Shown here piece by piece: positions 1 through 8,220 of a DNA stretch of 8,220 bases; within the stretch, counting starts at the first letter, position 1, and the number at the start of each line of letters is the position of its first letter. The position numbers and the translations under genes were made by a program. Under the pieces are notes generated by a model. The model was not told where the DNA came from and did no database searches. It was given only the letters and a program-made list of their open reading frames with translations. The stretch is from a bacterium (GTDB lineage Bacteria > Thermosulfidibacterota > Thermosulfidibacteria > Thermosulfidibacterales > Thermosulfidibacteraceae), in the NCBI GenBank assembly GCA_027022065.1, contig JALVZS010000133.1, positions 316 to 8,535 of the forward strand. Reading direction: 5' to 3'.

Positions 1-970
1 AAAGTGTCTGTTGAGCTGGCCCTAAATTAGACTCAACGCCAGGAATCCCTCCCGCTCCTGGAACCTTACCCTGGGCCTTTTCAATTATCTGCTGCTCGCT
101 TCTCACAACATTTTCAGGATCGTAAAGCTCCTTGTAGCGCTCTATCTTGCTGAAATCCAGCTCCACACTGACCTTGGCCACCGCTTTGCCTGGTCCAAGG
201 GCCTCGTTCAACATGGACATTATCTTCTTCTCATAGAGCTTCTCCAGCTTCCTCCTGTACTCAAGCCTGTCCAGAGCAACTTTACCTAGGTTCTCCTTCT
301 CCTCGGCGAGCATCTCGGTGAGATCAACACCGTTTGTGTCAACCACGGTAACGTTCTGGGGCTTCAATCCCTCAACGGCACTTGCCACAAGATGCACAAT
401 TGCCCTGACCTGTTCTGGCTTTAGAGTGTATCCAGGTTTTAGTTTAACCACCACCGTAGCCTTGGGGGGCTGTTGCTCCTCAAGAAAGACGCTTTTCTTA
501 GGAAGGACGAGAAGAACTCTGGCGTCTTCTATGGGCTTGAGCTCCATTATGGTCCTTGCAAGCTCACCCTGAAGGGCCCTCACATAGTTCACATGCTCCA
601 TAAACTCGGTCATTCCTATGTTGGTCTTGTCAAATATCTCAAACCCCACACCTGGTCCTCTGGGCAAACCTTTAGCGGCAAATTCTAGCCTTAAGGCGTA
701 CACCCTGTTTTTAGGAACGAGAATGGTCTTGCCGTTCTTCTCAAGCTTGTAAGGTATGTTTCTGGCCTGAAGCTCCTTTACGATTTCTCCGGCATCCTTG
801 GGGGAAAGGTTAGAAAAGAGAACCCCGTACTCCTGCCTGTTGCCCACAAAGGCTACCGCTATGAGCGCAATAAAGGCACTTAGAGCTGCACCCAGAATAA
901 CATACCTCTGCCACTTAGGCAGGTTCTGAATAGGCTCAACGATGCCCTTCAGCCAGCGGGGAAGCTCCAT
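1..970 (-). CDS. fliF: FliF, flagellar MS-ring protein (N-terminal 323 residues; C-terminus cut by window edge)
   Basis: FliF builds the inner-membrane MS ring that carries the rod, the C ring and the export gate. Reading leftward from ATG at 970, the frame stays open to base 1, giving 323 residues of a protein that normally has about 500-560. There is one N-terminal membrane helix (about 23-43). It is followed by the first ring-building motif (YGVLFSNLSPKDAGEIV at 48-64, NIPYKL at 71-76), then FEIFD (110-114) and ALQGELARTI (132-141). A further conserved stretch (SVFLEEQQPPKATVVVKL, 160-177) leads to VVDTNGVDL. The ENVVRSEQ segment at 286-293 belongs to the third ring domain. The missing part would hold the second membrane helix and the FliG-binding tail. 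The start lies 6 bases after the fliE stop, with an AGGTG ribosome site inside the end of fliE, so it is last of the visible operon genes. Confidence 0.97.
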   Translation of the reverse strand, partial: MELPRWLKGIVEPIQNLPKWQRYVILGAALSAFIALIAVAFVGNRQEYGVLFSNLSPKDAGEIVKELQARNIPYKLEKNGKTILVPKNRVYALRLEFAAKGLPRGPGVGFEIFDKTNIGMTEFMEHVNYVRALQGELARTIMELKPIEDARVLLVLPKKSVFLEEQQPPKATVVVKLKPGYTLKPEQVRAIVHLVASAVEGLKPQNVTVVDTNGVDLTEMLAEEKENLGKVALDRLEYRRKLEKLYEKKIMSMLNEALGPGKAVAKVSVELDFSKIERYKELYDPENVVRSEQQIIEKAQGKVPGAGGIPGVESNLGPAQQTL

Positions 971-976
971 TTAAGA

Positions 977-1279
977 TTACACCTGCATGCGCATTATCTC
1001 CTGATAAGCCTCAAGGGCTTTGTTTCTAACCTCCATCAGCATCCTAAGGGAGACATCAGCCTTCTGTAGGGTTATCATAACCTTCTGTATATCCTTCTCC
1101 TTCCCTGTGGAGAGCGCTTTCAAGGCCTCCTCGGCTTCAAGCTGCATCTTGTTCACCTCCGCCAGGCTCTCCTTCAGAACATCCGCAAAGGATTTAGAGC
1201 TGGACTTCCCCTGCTTTTTTACACCATCGGTGGCCTGCTGGGCCATCTGGCCGTATATTTTAGCCACCCTGTTGTTCAT
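977..1279 (-). CDS. fliE: FliE, flagellar hook-basal body protein at the MS ring-rod junction
   Basis: FliE is the small protein that joins the MS ring and export gate to the proximal rod. The 100-residue length is typical. The N-terminal third is polar and low in complexity (KKQGKSSSKS, 21-30). The rest is predicted helical and ends in the family signature region VMITLQKADVSLRMLMEVRNK (67-87) followed by ALEAYQEIMRMQV. The ATG at 1279 follows a purine-rich GGGGG site that overlaps the flgC stop codon (stop at 1293-1291, 11 bases between genes), which suggests coupled translation. It sits in the usual flgB-flgC-fliE-fliF order. Confidence 0.96.
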   Translation of the reverse strand: MNNRVAKIYGQMAQQATDGVKKQGKSSSKSFADVLKESLAEVNKMQLEAEEALKALSTGKEKDIQKVMITLQKADVSLRMLMEVRNKALEAYQEIMRMQV

Positions 1280-1290
1280 GAAACGCCCCC

Positions 1291-1746
1291 TTAGACTCGG
1301 GCTATATCTAAAGTTCTTAATATCATATCCTTCGCAGAATTAAAAGCGGTGACATTTGCCTCAAAGGAACGGGAAGCGGAAATAAGGTTTACCATCTCCT
1401 CCACCACATCCACATTGGGATAGGTTACGTAGCCATCCTTATCAGCATCGGGGTGATAGGGATCGTAAACCTTCCTGAAAGGCTTTTTGTCCTCCACAAT
1501 CTCCACCACCTTGACACCCTCAGGCTGGTAGCTGGGAGATATAAGGCTTTCAATGTAATCCCCAAAACTCTTATAAGGCTTATCAAGCCTAACGGCCGCA
1601 AAAACCACATCCTTCCTACGGTAGGGCCCGCCCTCTGGAGTTCTTGTAGTGTCAGCGTTGGCAAGATTTGAGGATATAACATTCATCCTCAAACGCTGAG
1701 CGGACATCCCACTTGCGGATATCTTAAATATATCAAAGAAGCCCAT
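1291..1746 (-). CDS. flgC: FlgC, flagellar proximal rod protein
   Basis: FlgC is a subunit of the proximal flagellar rod, exported by the flagellar type III system and assembled in the periplasm. The N-terminus FKISASGMSAQRLRMNVISS (7-26), followed by NLANADTTRTPEGGPYRR (27-44), is the standard rod/hook-family signature. The C-terminal half DGYVTYPNVDVVEEMVNLI (104-122) continues into SASRSFEANVTAFNSAKDM, the conserved C-terminal coiled-coil segment that pairs with the N-terminal helix. At 151 residues it is slightly longer than many FlgC proteins, the extra being in the middle domain (about 55-105). ATG at 1746 lies only 3 bases after the flgB stop and is preceded by a GGAGGGAG ribosome site inside the flgB end. 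Confidence 0.97.
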   Translation of the reverse strand: MGFFDIFKISASGMSAQRLRMNVISSNLANADTTRTPEGGPYRRKDVVFAAVRLDKPYKSFGDYIESLISPSYQPEGVKVVEIVEDKKPFRKVYDPYHPDADKDGYVTYPNVDVVEEMVNLISASRSFEANVTAFNSAKDMILRTLDIARV

Positions 1747-1749
1747 TAC

Positions 1750-2163
1750 TTACTCCCTCCCCCTTATGGCATACTTCAGCCTGGCAAGCTGCATTGAGTA
1801 GGCCTGAGCTATGGCGTCGTAGAGCACCTGATTTTCAGCAAGCCTCGCCATCTCTCTATCTATATCAACGGAATTGCCGTCGTTCCTCACAGGCCAAAGT
1901 ATCCTTTCCACACTTCCCTTAACATCCTCCAAACTGGCAGGAACATTTCTTATATGCCTGGGATTTGTTACATAAAGGGGTAACTCATCCGTTCCATAAA
2001 CCACCTGTTGCAGTTGCTTCTCAAAGTGGAACCTCCTCGCCTTGTAGCCCGGGGTGTCAACATTGGCTATGTTTGCTGCTATGTATTCGTGTCTTTTTCT
2101 GAGAAGCCTTAAAGCAGCTTCCGCCACATCCAGAGCCATGCCGCTGTAGATTCTCTCAAGCAT
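1750..2163 (-). CDS. flgB: FlgB, flagellar proximal rod protein
   Basis: FlgB is the proximal rod subunit next to FliE. The protein has 137 residues from the chosen ATG, the normal family size. It carries the rod-family signature HEYIAANIANVDTPGYKARR (25-44) and the C-terminal NSVDIDREMARLAENQVLYD (97-116), both strongly conserved in FlgB. The frame also allows GTG starts at 2172 and 2169, but GGAGGT (minus strand, 2176-2171) would touch or overlap those codons. It stands 7 bases before the ATG at 2163. The predicted sigma-54 transcript start near 2179 also leaves no room for a start at 2172. It is the first gene of the flagellar operon. Confidence 0.97.
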   Translation of the reverse strand: MLERIYSGMALDVAEAALRLLRKRHEYIAANIANVDTPGYKARRFHFEKQLQQVVYGTDELPLYVTNPRHIRNVPASLEDVKGSVERILWPVRNDGNSVDIDREMARLAENQVLYDAIAQAYSMQLARLKYAIRGRE

Positions 2164-2170
2164 AGCCACC

Positions 2171-2176
2171 ACCTCC
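2171..2176 (-). promoter_or_regulatory. Ribosome binding site of flgB (decides the start)
   Basis: GGAGGT on the minus strand, 7 bases upstream of ATG 2163, is a near-perfect Shine-Dalgarno sequence. It lies within the 3' half of a small inverted repeat (2169-2182), so it could be masked in a longer transcript. Confidence 0.85.
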
Positions 2177-2189
2177 AGGTGGCAATGTT

Positions 2190-2205
2190 AGCAAGAATAA
2201 TGCCA
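2190..2205 (-). promoter_or_regulatory. Sigma-54 (RpoN) -24/-12 promoter of the flgB-flgC-fliE-fliF operon
   Basis: The minus strand reads TGGCATTATTCTTGCT. The known RpoN consensus is TGGCAC, five bases, TTGCA/T. Here the -24 element is TGGCA followed by T in place of C, and the -12 element is TTGCT. Exactly 10 bases separate the invariant GG and GC. It sits in the 45-base gap between the SDH-protease stop (2209) and flgB, and predicts a transcript start near 2179-2180 and a leader of about 16 bases that begins just before the flgB Shine-Dalgarno. RpoN control of early rod/basal-body genes is known in other bacteria such as Helicobacter and Campylobacter. I could not identify activator binding sites upstream. 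Confidence 0.75.
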
Positions 2206-2208
2206 ACT

Positions 2209-3060
2209 TTAAGAAGCCCCTTTAGAATGCTTGTAAGGAACGGGTATATACTGAACGGAAGAACGCATGCTCATGGGCTGCTCATATAGATCCATAAGCT
2301 CGTAAACCTCCTCTGGCATATCGGTGCTGACCTTTATACCCAGAGCCTCAAGGTCCTTCTTCATTAAAGGATAATCGTGGGTCCACCTGCCCTGAGAGAG
2401 GATCTCCGCCACCTCCTCGGCCTTCTTCTCATCCCATCCCTTGTGAAGCAGTATCTCCTTAACCGTCTCTTTCATCTGGGCAAGGGCCTTTGCGGCCATA
2501 TCTGCCATTATAAGGGTATTGTCATCTATCTTTTCCACAGGCTTTTTCTCCAAAACGGACATAATGCTTGCAGCAGGCATCTGACCAAGCTGAGGATCCA
2601 CAGGTCCCAGAACGGCATTTTCATCCATAACGATCTCATCCGCCGCCAAAGAGATGAGGGTCCCGCCCGACATGGCAAAGTGAGGCACAAATACCGTGAC
2701 CTTAGCCGGGTGCTTCATCAAGGCGTAAGCTATCTGTTTGGCTGCAAGCACAAGCCCCCCTGGAGTGTGGATGATAAAATCTATGGGCACATCTGGAGGC
2801 GTCATCCTTATCGCCCTAAGCACGCTTTCTGAATCCTCCATATCAATGAACTTCATAAAAGGAATGCCCAACAAACTCCTGGATTCCTGCCTGTGGATCA
2901 TGGTTATAACCCTTGAACCGTGCTTCTTCTCCAGTCTCCTCATAACCCTCAAGCGGGCAGCTTCCAGCATCCTTTGGCGCATCAAAGGCATGAAGGAGAG
3001 GATTATGAGGAAAAGCCAGAATAGATCAAATATGCTGATGTGAGGGACCTGATACTGCAT
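2209..3060 (-). CDS. SDH-family (PF01972) ClpP/SppA-like membrane-anchored serine protease
   Basis: This 283-residue protein belongs to the 'serine dehydrogenase proteinase' family, a crotonase/ClpP-fold group related to signal peptide peptidase SppA. Residues about 8-27 form one hydrophobic anchor, followed by a basic, helical stretch (28-50). The protease core shows HTPGG (98-102, oxyanion-hole type glycines), then VTVFVPHFAMSGGTLISLAA (121-140) with the probable nucleophile Ser131. After it come DEIVMDENAVLGPVDPQLG (141-159) and the later GRWTHDYPL (224-232), all family landmarks. The core probably faces the cytoplasm, given the basic residues after the anchor. ATG 3060 has GGAGGT 7 bases upstream. 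It is transcribed toward flgB and divergently from the PAP2 gene. The substrate is unknown; quality control of membrane proteins is a reasonable guess from the fold. A flagellar role is not shown. Confidence 0.88.
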   Translation of the reverse strand: MQYQVPHISIFDLFWLFLIILSFMPLMRQRMLEAARLRVMRRLEKKHGSRVITMIHRQESRSLLGIPFMKFIDMEDSESVLRAIRMTPPDVPIDFIIHTPGGLVLAAKQIAYALMKHPAKVTVFVPHFAMSGGTLISLAADEIVMDENAVLGPVDPQLGQMPAASIMSVLEKKPVEKIDDNTLIMADMAAKALAQMKETVKEILLHKGWDEKKAEEVAEILSQGRWTHDYPLMKKDLEALGIKVSTDMPEEVYELMDLYEQPMSMRSSVQYIPVPYKHSKGAS

Positions 3061-7255: not shown

Positions 7256-8220
7256 ATGAAAAAGCTTTGGAGTCTTTTTGCAGTGGTACTTTCCCTGATG
7301 CTCGTCTCAGGATGCACAGAGATAGAAACCACGGTGCACAGCTCAGGCCCCACTGTACAACAGGTTGCCACCTATCAAGGGCCAAAGGCAAGGATAGCGG
7401 TGGCAAGCTTCAAGTGTAAGGCCGCCAAGTGTAACGGAGAGATAGGAAGTGGACTTTCAGACATGTTGGCAACAGCCCTTTTCAAATCGGGAAGGTTCAT
7501 CGTCCTAGAAAGAGGCGAAGGGCTTGAGGAGCTAAAGAAAGAGCTGAACCTAGGCCAGTCTGGATACGTTGAGGCAGGTAAAGCTCCGAAGATAGGACTA
7601 ATGGAAGGAGCAGACATACTGGTTATAGGAGCCATTACCGCCTTTGAACCTAACGCCTCGGGCATAGGTGGAGGTGGAGTTGTTGCACCCTTTAGAGTGC
7701 CTCTTATAGGAGCCGTGGGAGGTGCCAAAAAGGAAGCTTATATAGCAGCAGATATAAGGCTTGCTGATGTCAGAACCGGCAGGATAATCAATGCCACCAG
7801 GGTTGAGGGGAAGGCATCCAGTTGGAAGCTGGGAGGACTTGGAGGAACCATAATCGGAAGTGTAGCACTGGGGGCAGGGCTTGGAGGCTACAAAAACACA
7901 CCCATGGAAAAGGCCATAGCCGTAGTGCTTGATAGAGCTGTTCAGGAAATAGCTAGGATGGTCCCCGAAAGCTATTATAGATACGGAGGGGGAGCGGGAT
8001 ACCACGGATACAAAAGTAGCTCCCAAGCAAGGTATGTGGCCTTTGAAGAAGCCCGATACATCACCATAGCGGGAAGCAGGGTAAACATAAGGAAAGGTCC
8101 CGGAACAAACTATCCCATAATAACCTCGCTTGTTAGAGGCACCAGTGTAAAGGCCATAGGCAAGCAGGGCAGGTGGTATCAGATAGAGCTTCCCGATGGT
8201 AGAATAGGGTGGGTATATGG
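7256..8220 (+). CDS. CsgG-like lipoprotein with C-terminal SH3b domain (C-terminus cut by window edge)
   Basis: The frame runs from ATG 7256 to the window end (321 codons visible, no stop). The start is a lipoprotein signal: a KK pair, a hydrophobic core and lipobox LVSG-Cys20. Residues about 44-235 resemble the CsgG/curli-assembly family: KARIAVASF (44-52), GSGLSDMLATALFKSGRFIV (64-83), GADILVIGAITAF (118-130), DIRLADVRTGRIINA (166-180) and AIAVVLDRAVQEIA (220-233). Gly-rich stretches at 134-157 and 192-211 lie where CsgG forms its membrane hairpins. Residues about 267-321 are a bacterial SH3 domain (AGSRVNIRKGPGTNYPIITS, then GRWYQIELPDGRIGWVY), often peptidoglycan-binding. A periplasmic or outer-membrane lipoprotein is likely; secretion-pore function is unproven and no csgA/B/E/F partner is present. 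Cys54 and Cys59 (CKAAKC) might form a disulfide. Confidence 0.82.
   Translation, partial: MKKLWSLFAVVLSLMLVSGCTEIETTVHSSGPTVQQVATYQGPKARIAVASFKCKAAKCNGEIGSGLSDMLATALFKSGRFIVLERGEGLEELKKELNLGQSGYVEAGKAPKIGLMEGADILVIGAITAFEPNASGIGGGGVVAPFRVPLIGAVGGAKKEAYIAADIRLADVRTGRIINATRVEGKASSWKLGGLGGTIIGSVALGAGLGGYKNTPMEKAIAVVLDRAVQEIARMVPESYYRYGGGAGYHGYKSSSQARYVAFEEARYITIAGSRVNIRKGPGTNYPIITSLVRGTSVKAIGKQGRWYQIELPDGRIGWVY

Follow-up and report, generated by a model that had tools for sequence, protein, structure and literature searches.

A conserved sigma-54 promoter ahead of the flgB–flgC–fliE–fliF flagellar operon in a member of the Thermosulfidibacteraceae

In polar flagellates, promoters of the sigma-54/FlgR type serve the middle (rod and hook) class of flagellar genes. 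The flgB and flgF genes of Vibrio cholerae have separate sigma-54 promoters, flgBp and flgFp, under FlrBC, which provides an experimental precedent for the arrangement described here, and in Campylobacter jejuni sigma-54 activation is preceded by a signal that FlgS receives from FliF/FliG and the export gate (PMC7064773). Here we analyse an 8,220-nt stretch of DNA (the window) from a bacterium of the Thermosulfidibacteraceae and confirm that a 16-mer directly upstream of flgB, TGGCATTATTCTTGCT, is a sigma-54 promoter. Together with a second sigma-54 site at flgF it fits the known polar-flagellate programme and is thus a site of an already known kind (PMC7064773). We consider it very probable that the site starts transcription of flgB–flgC–fliE–fliF near 2179 after awaiting an activator, that a second promoter of this class acts at flgF and that flagellin follows later through sigma-28.

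Read directly, the minus strand around the site runs 5′-...TCTTAAAGT TGGCATTATTCTTGCT AACATTGCCACCTGGAGGTGGTGGCT ATG-3′, with the 16-mer extending from 2205 to 2190 (Table 1). A preliminary description of this DNA had noted, in the narrow space before flgB, TGGCA and TTGCT with a spacing of 10 bases between GG and GC; reading of the sequence, scanning and simulation bear this out and place the element on the minus strand. The GG-to-GC spacing is exactly 10 bases, as in the TGGCAC-N5-TTGCW pattern of such promoters. Compared with the consensus TGGCACRNNNNTTGCW, the 16-mer agrees everywhere except at two weakly conserved positions, C and R, where it has T; that the two T's following TGGCA differ from the commonest bases counts against a sigma-54 promoter. 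When the window was scanned with TGGCAYRNNNNTTGCW, TGGCATTATTCTTGCT had one mismatch and the 7 other matches had two each. The predicted transcription start at 2179 lies 16 nt ahead of the ATG at 2163, which is most likely the flgB start rather than the GTG at 2172 given by a mechanical open-reading-frame call, and the GGAGGT sequence stays in the resulting 16-nt leader. Its GGAG core is unchanged in all six flgB and flgF leaders from this genome (G000) and two relatives (G002 and G003).

Table 1 Features of the flgB region, in window coordinates
Feature	Position	Strand	Basis
Sigma-54 −24/−12 promoter TGGCATTATTCTTGCT	2190..2205	minus	Read directly; only window match with ≤1 mismatch; kept in G002 and G003
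Predicted +1	2179..2180	minus	12 nt past the −12 C at 2191; inferred from sigma-54 geometry
Shine–Dalgarno GGAGGT of flgB	2171..2176	minus	Read from sequence
5′ arm GCCACC of flgB inverted repeat	2178..2183	minus	Mostly upstream of predicted +1
3′ arm GGTGGC of flgB inverted repeat	2165..2170	minus	Directly before ATG
flgB, rod protein, first operon gene	1750..2163	minus	TIGR01396 FlgB 102 bits (cut-off 59)
flgC	1291..1746	minus	TIGR01395 186 bits
fliE	977..1279	minus	TIGR00205 97 bits; PF02049
fliF, MS ring, continues beyond window edge	2..970	minus	TIGR00206 297 bits; PF01514
ClpP-like SDH serine protease gene, upstream of flgB	2209..3060	minus	NF047768 430 bits

The genes flgB, flgC, fliE and fliF all exceed their NCBIfam cut-offs and are spaced by 3–11 bp, with fliF fourth behind the sigma-54 site. 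That a sigma-54 promoter drives this operon, as had been proposed, is supported by the genome's own rpoN, by the conserved GG/GC in relatives and by the flgF site. The accompanying proposal that the operon is transcribed separately from the upstream protease gene holds in part: the operon has a promoter of its own, but no terminator-like structure was found on the minus strand between the two genes, and read-through from the protease gene into flgB could therefore occur. The protease stop codon (2211–2209) is separated from the promoter by 3 bp, and no good sigma-70 promoter was found on the minus strand of the gap. With this gene order, fliF would have no earlier transcription of its own apart from the sigma-54 rod promoters; an additional promoter that escaped detection is possible. 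Elsewhere in the window, 7256–8218 encodes a CsgG-like lipoprotein that carries a bacterial SH3 domain at its C terminus.

Among eight other genomes of the same order that were searched, flgB was recovered from two. The flgB site is present in both, as TGGCATATCCTTTGCT in G002 (same family), 40 bp before the start codon, and as TGGAACGGTTCTTGCT in G003 (same order), with GG and GC kept as the preliminary description would have it. Upstream of flgB, G000 has the SDH protease gene, G002 encodes an NtrC-family regulator and G003 has an unrelated gene on the opposite strand; the core thus persists while its surroundings do not. At flgF, too, position and core are kept, with a site preceding the gene in 3 of 3 genomes (41, 43 and 43 bp ahead in G000, G002 and G003, respectively). 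More distantly, 14 of 27 flgF loci carry a site scoring at least 0.9 inside 200 bp, as do 8 of 80 flgB loci, many of them from Firmicutes, against 7 of 1,154 control tiles. These counts indicate that sigma-54 control of rod operons is common.

Scanning our genome for the same motif at other flagellar genes, as earlier suggested, revealed a perfect sigma-54 consensus, TGGCACGCATTTTGCT, ahead of flgF (L178, contig C44, 1758–1773; flgF start 1799), where it heads the flgFGAHIJMNKL–fliW operon. The flagellin gene has a promoter of the form TAAAGTTT-N11-GCCGATAC, with one mismatch to the sigma-28 consensus (L189, contig C73, 5841, minus strand), and fliA and flgM reading frames were recognised in the same genome by inspection of sequence and gene order. 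At the level of promoter sites, the rod genes at flgB and flgF are therefore of the sigma-54 class and flagellin of the sigma-28 class, with FliA and FlgM present. The description of RpoN-controlled flagellar genes as early is loose, rod and hook genes being of the middle class in polar flagellates. A candidate fliA site, TGGTATGCTGTTTGCT (L188, 8344–8329, minus strand), is off-consensus, apparently lies inside a small reading frame (...FFGMLFAIT...) and is probably a chance occurrence.

Sigma-54 sites were also observed ahead of other genes. A gene of about 280 codons carries one in three genomes of the family (L180, G000 contig C69, 2393–2378; L240, G001 contig C12, 1461–1476; L236, G002 contig C240, 3784–3769); the three genes look orthologous by inspection, and no Pfam family scores above cut-off, with a weak BNR-like match in one. 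Two sites (L179, G000 contig C39, 609–624 and 3023–3038) precede genes for apparently secreted proteins. A type IV pilin gene adjoining a kinase–regulator pair is preceded by a site in G002 (L184, contig C160, 3602–3617), and further sites occur in G003 (L233, contig C89, 2850–2865; L234, contig C166, 4448–4463 and 2547–2562). These G002 and G003 sites lie ahead of type IV pilin genes and, in G003, of glnK/amtB-like genes beside a NifA-like activator.

The organism has RpoN, as the preliminary description had supposed. The gene, on contig C225 in the classical lptB–rpoN–hpf–ptsN neighbourhood, is intact and encodes activator-interacting, core-binding and DNA-binding domains with an exact RpoN box, ARRTVAKYRE (TIGR02395, 326 bits; cut-off 277). 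The assembly, 88% complete, yielded two full NtrC-family proteins. The one encoded on C100 has an intact GSFTGA loop and is the only intact GAFTGA-type activator found there; its gene is not beside flagellar genes and lies between a histidine kinase gene upstream and a TonB-type receptor gene downstream, both recognised by inspection. The gene at the first L179 site resembles by eye a G001 gene that follows an activator and a TonB receptor (L181, 4457–4780), which suggests that the C100 activator serves the L179 secreted-protein genes. The second protein, encoded on C233, is NtrX-like and adjoins an NtrY-like kinase; its GAFTGA loop is lost and, given the known function of this loop, it is unlikely to open sigma-54 promoters. 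Across the NtrX-like regulators of this order (L059, G000 contig C233, 1257–2597, and the genes of G003–G008), the loop is likewise lost, except in genus g2, in which it persists as GSFAGA/GAFGGA.

In G002, an NtrC-family regulator with receiver, GAFTGA ATPase and Fis-type helix–turn–helix domains is encoded immediately upstream of flgB (L054, 4213–5541), and G003 has its ortholog (61% identity); both fall below the cut-offs of the FlgR, FlbD and NtrC models. The proposal that an NtrC-type activator controls the operon accordingly gains from the G002 gene order. Our own assembly, at 88% completeness, yielded no ortholog of this FlgR-like regulator, perhaps because it is incomplete, and no activator-binding palindrome common to the flgB and flgF upstream regions was found in G000, G002 and G003.

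In the model that we propose, RNA polymerase with RpoN would occupy TGGCA/TTGCT as a closed complex. Opening of the flgB promoter would await a phosphorylated NtrC-family activator, in function of the FlgR/FlrC/FlbD type, and transcription of the operon would then begin at about 2179. The second sigma-54 promoter would likewise switch on flgFGAHIJMNKL–fliW, and flagellin would come next under sigma-28 (FliA), with FlgM as the restraint. Against this model stand the position of fliF inside a sigma-54 operon, which conflicts with a strict FliF-first checkpoint, the missing FlgR-like gene and the lack of a shared palindrome. We regard it as highly improbable that the 16-mer is a functionless chance match and that flgB owes its expression to a sigma-70 promoter or to transcripts running on from the protease gene. 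The terminator-free junction with the protease gene would suit such a reading. In the genome (1.57 Mb in 251 contigs; motif statistics from whole-genome counts plus selected contigs), TGGCN7TTGCW occurs 22 times, compared with 7 for the reversed pattern as control. Most of the 22 do not lie directly ahead of a gene; strings fitting this loose pattern thus do arise by chance, which would also suit that reading. By reading-frame analysis, a plausible start codon follows within about 65 bp for about 5 of the 22, among them the two sites that head the flagellar operons. In first-order Markov simulations, so high a score arises with P = 0.0004 in the 44-bp flgB gap and P = 0.0017 in 150 bp. This low probability, the retention of sites at both flgB and flgF in three genomes with different upstream genes, and the want of a good sigma-70 promoter on the minus strand of the gap all speak against chance and for the sigma-54 promoter.

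The sigma-54 promoter may have an additional property, which would add to this explanation rather than replace it. In the window, an inverted repeat with 6-bp arms spans −4 to +15 around the Shine–Dalgarno sequence (shuffle P about 0.05; RNA fold z = −2.1). Perfect arms of 11 and 14 bp are present in the flgF leaders of G000 and G002, respectively; the repeats extend from the GC in the −12 element into the first codons, with the ATG inside the 3′ arm, and their RNA folds have z = −6.1 and −5.1, with 0 of 200 shuffles equally stable. Stem positions 12–14, the loop-proximal pairs, are U-G, G-U and G-C in G000 and U-A, A-U and A-U in G002. Most of the 5′ arm precedes the predicted +1, so folding would be confined to read-through RNA; by calculation, the energy needed to open the start region falls from 23.5 kcal/mol in a long RNA to 9.6 in RNA from +1 at flgF, and from 17.2 to 10.8 kcal/mol at flgB. 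It is conceivable, if somewhat doubtful, that the sigma-54 flagellar promoters of this lineage double as insulators, with the 5′ arm (−13 to about −1) in untranscribed promoter DNA and the 3′ arm over the Shine–Dalgarno sequence or AUG. Protease read-through RNA would then hide the Shine–Dalgarno sequence, whereas RNA started at +1, having no 5′ arm, would be translated; we hold this tentatively. If true, read-through RNA would keep flgB and flgF silent and could still supply fliE and fliF, and densely packed genes would be compactly insulated without terminators. For the start of flgM (L178, 6190), strong masking within a longer RNA is likewise predicted (opening cost 19.6 versus 4.2 kcal/mol), and this start has no sigma-54 site.

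The evidence for such an insulator is strong at flgF and suggestive at flgB. In its favour are the long flgF arms, their fold scores and the stem-pair changes between G000 and G002, as well as the repeats at the six flagellar sigma-54 heads, which exceed in length those at the starts of other genes (P = 0.0001 in a rank test, and 0.003 when the flgF genes of G000 and G002 are left out). Upstream genes in G000 moreover stop 2–3 bp short of the sites, and no terminator was found at flgB. On the other hand, the flgB repeat is just 6 bp and ranks about 8th of 65 starts by opening-energy difference, the G003 flgB has no repeat, flgM reaches a similar value although it lacks a sigma-54 promoter, and the pattern was spotted post hoc. 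In other phyla, neither the 15 distant flgB sites nor the 27 distant flgF loci showed the hairpin, and a literature search on read-through with Shine–Dalgarno sequestration gave nothing relevant. It is unlikely that the repeat instead acts as DNA, binding a regulator (repressor or activator) across the start site: the flgF arm sequence is identical over 11 bp in two genera, as such a site would be, but the flgB and flgF repeats are unrelated in sequence within one genome, the G-U wobbles in the flgF stem are compatible only with RNA and the flgF arm is linked to the beginning of the coding region.

Fold-back inhibition of read-through translation operates in IS10 and in gene e of phage T4. The likeness lies in a promoter in or beside one inverted-repeat arm, such that only transcripts from outside hide the start signal; the candidate here differs in being a chromosomal sigma-54 flagellar promoter and not part of a mobile element or a phage gene. 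As for the promoter itself, our locus shares with V. cholerae the separate sigma-54 promoters at flgB and flgF and probable control by an NtrC-family response regulator; in that species, however, the operon led by flgB is flgBCDE, and the master regulator FlrA directs earlier expression of the MS-ring gene, whereas here fliE and fliF belong to the flgB operon (PMC7064773). The putative pairing of an NtrC-family, FlgR-like regulator with sigma-54 for rod genes recalls the FlgSR–sigma-54 rod and hook regulon of Campylobacter and Helicobacter (PMC7064773). The sigma-54-to-sigma-28 flagellar cascade, familiar mainly from Campylobacter and from Proteobacteria with polar flagella, would thus extend to an order with only nine genomes in the set searched. 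The locus differs from C. jejuni in that fliF lies downstream of the sigma-54 promoter and the G002 regulator has no adjoining kinase gene; a strict 'MS ring first' checkpoint would forbid such an MS-ring gene within a sigma-54 operon.
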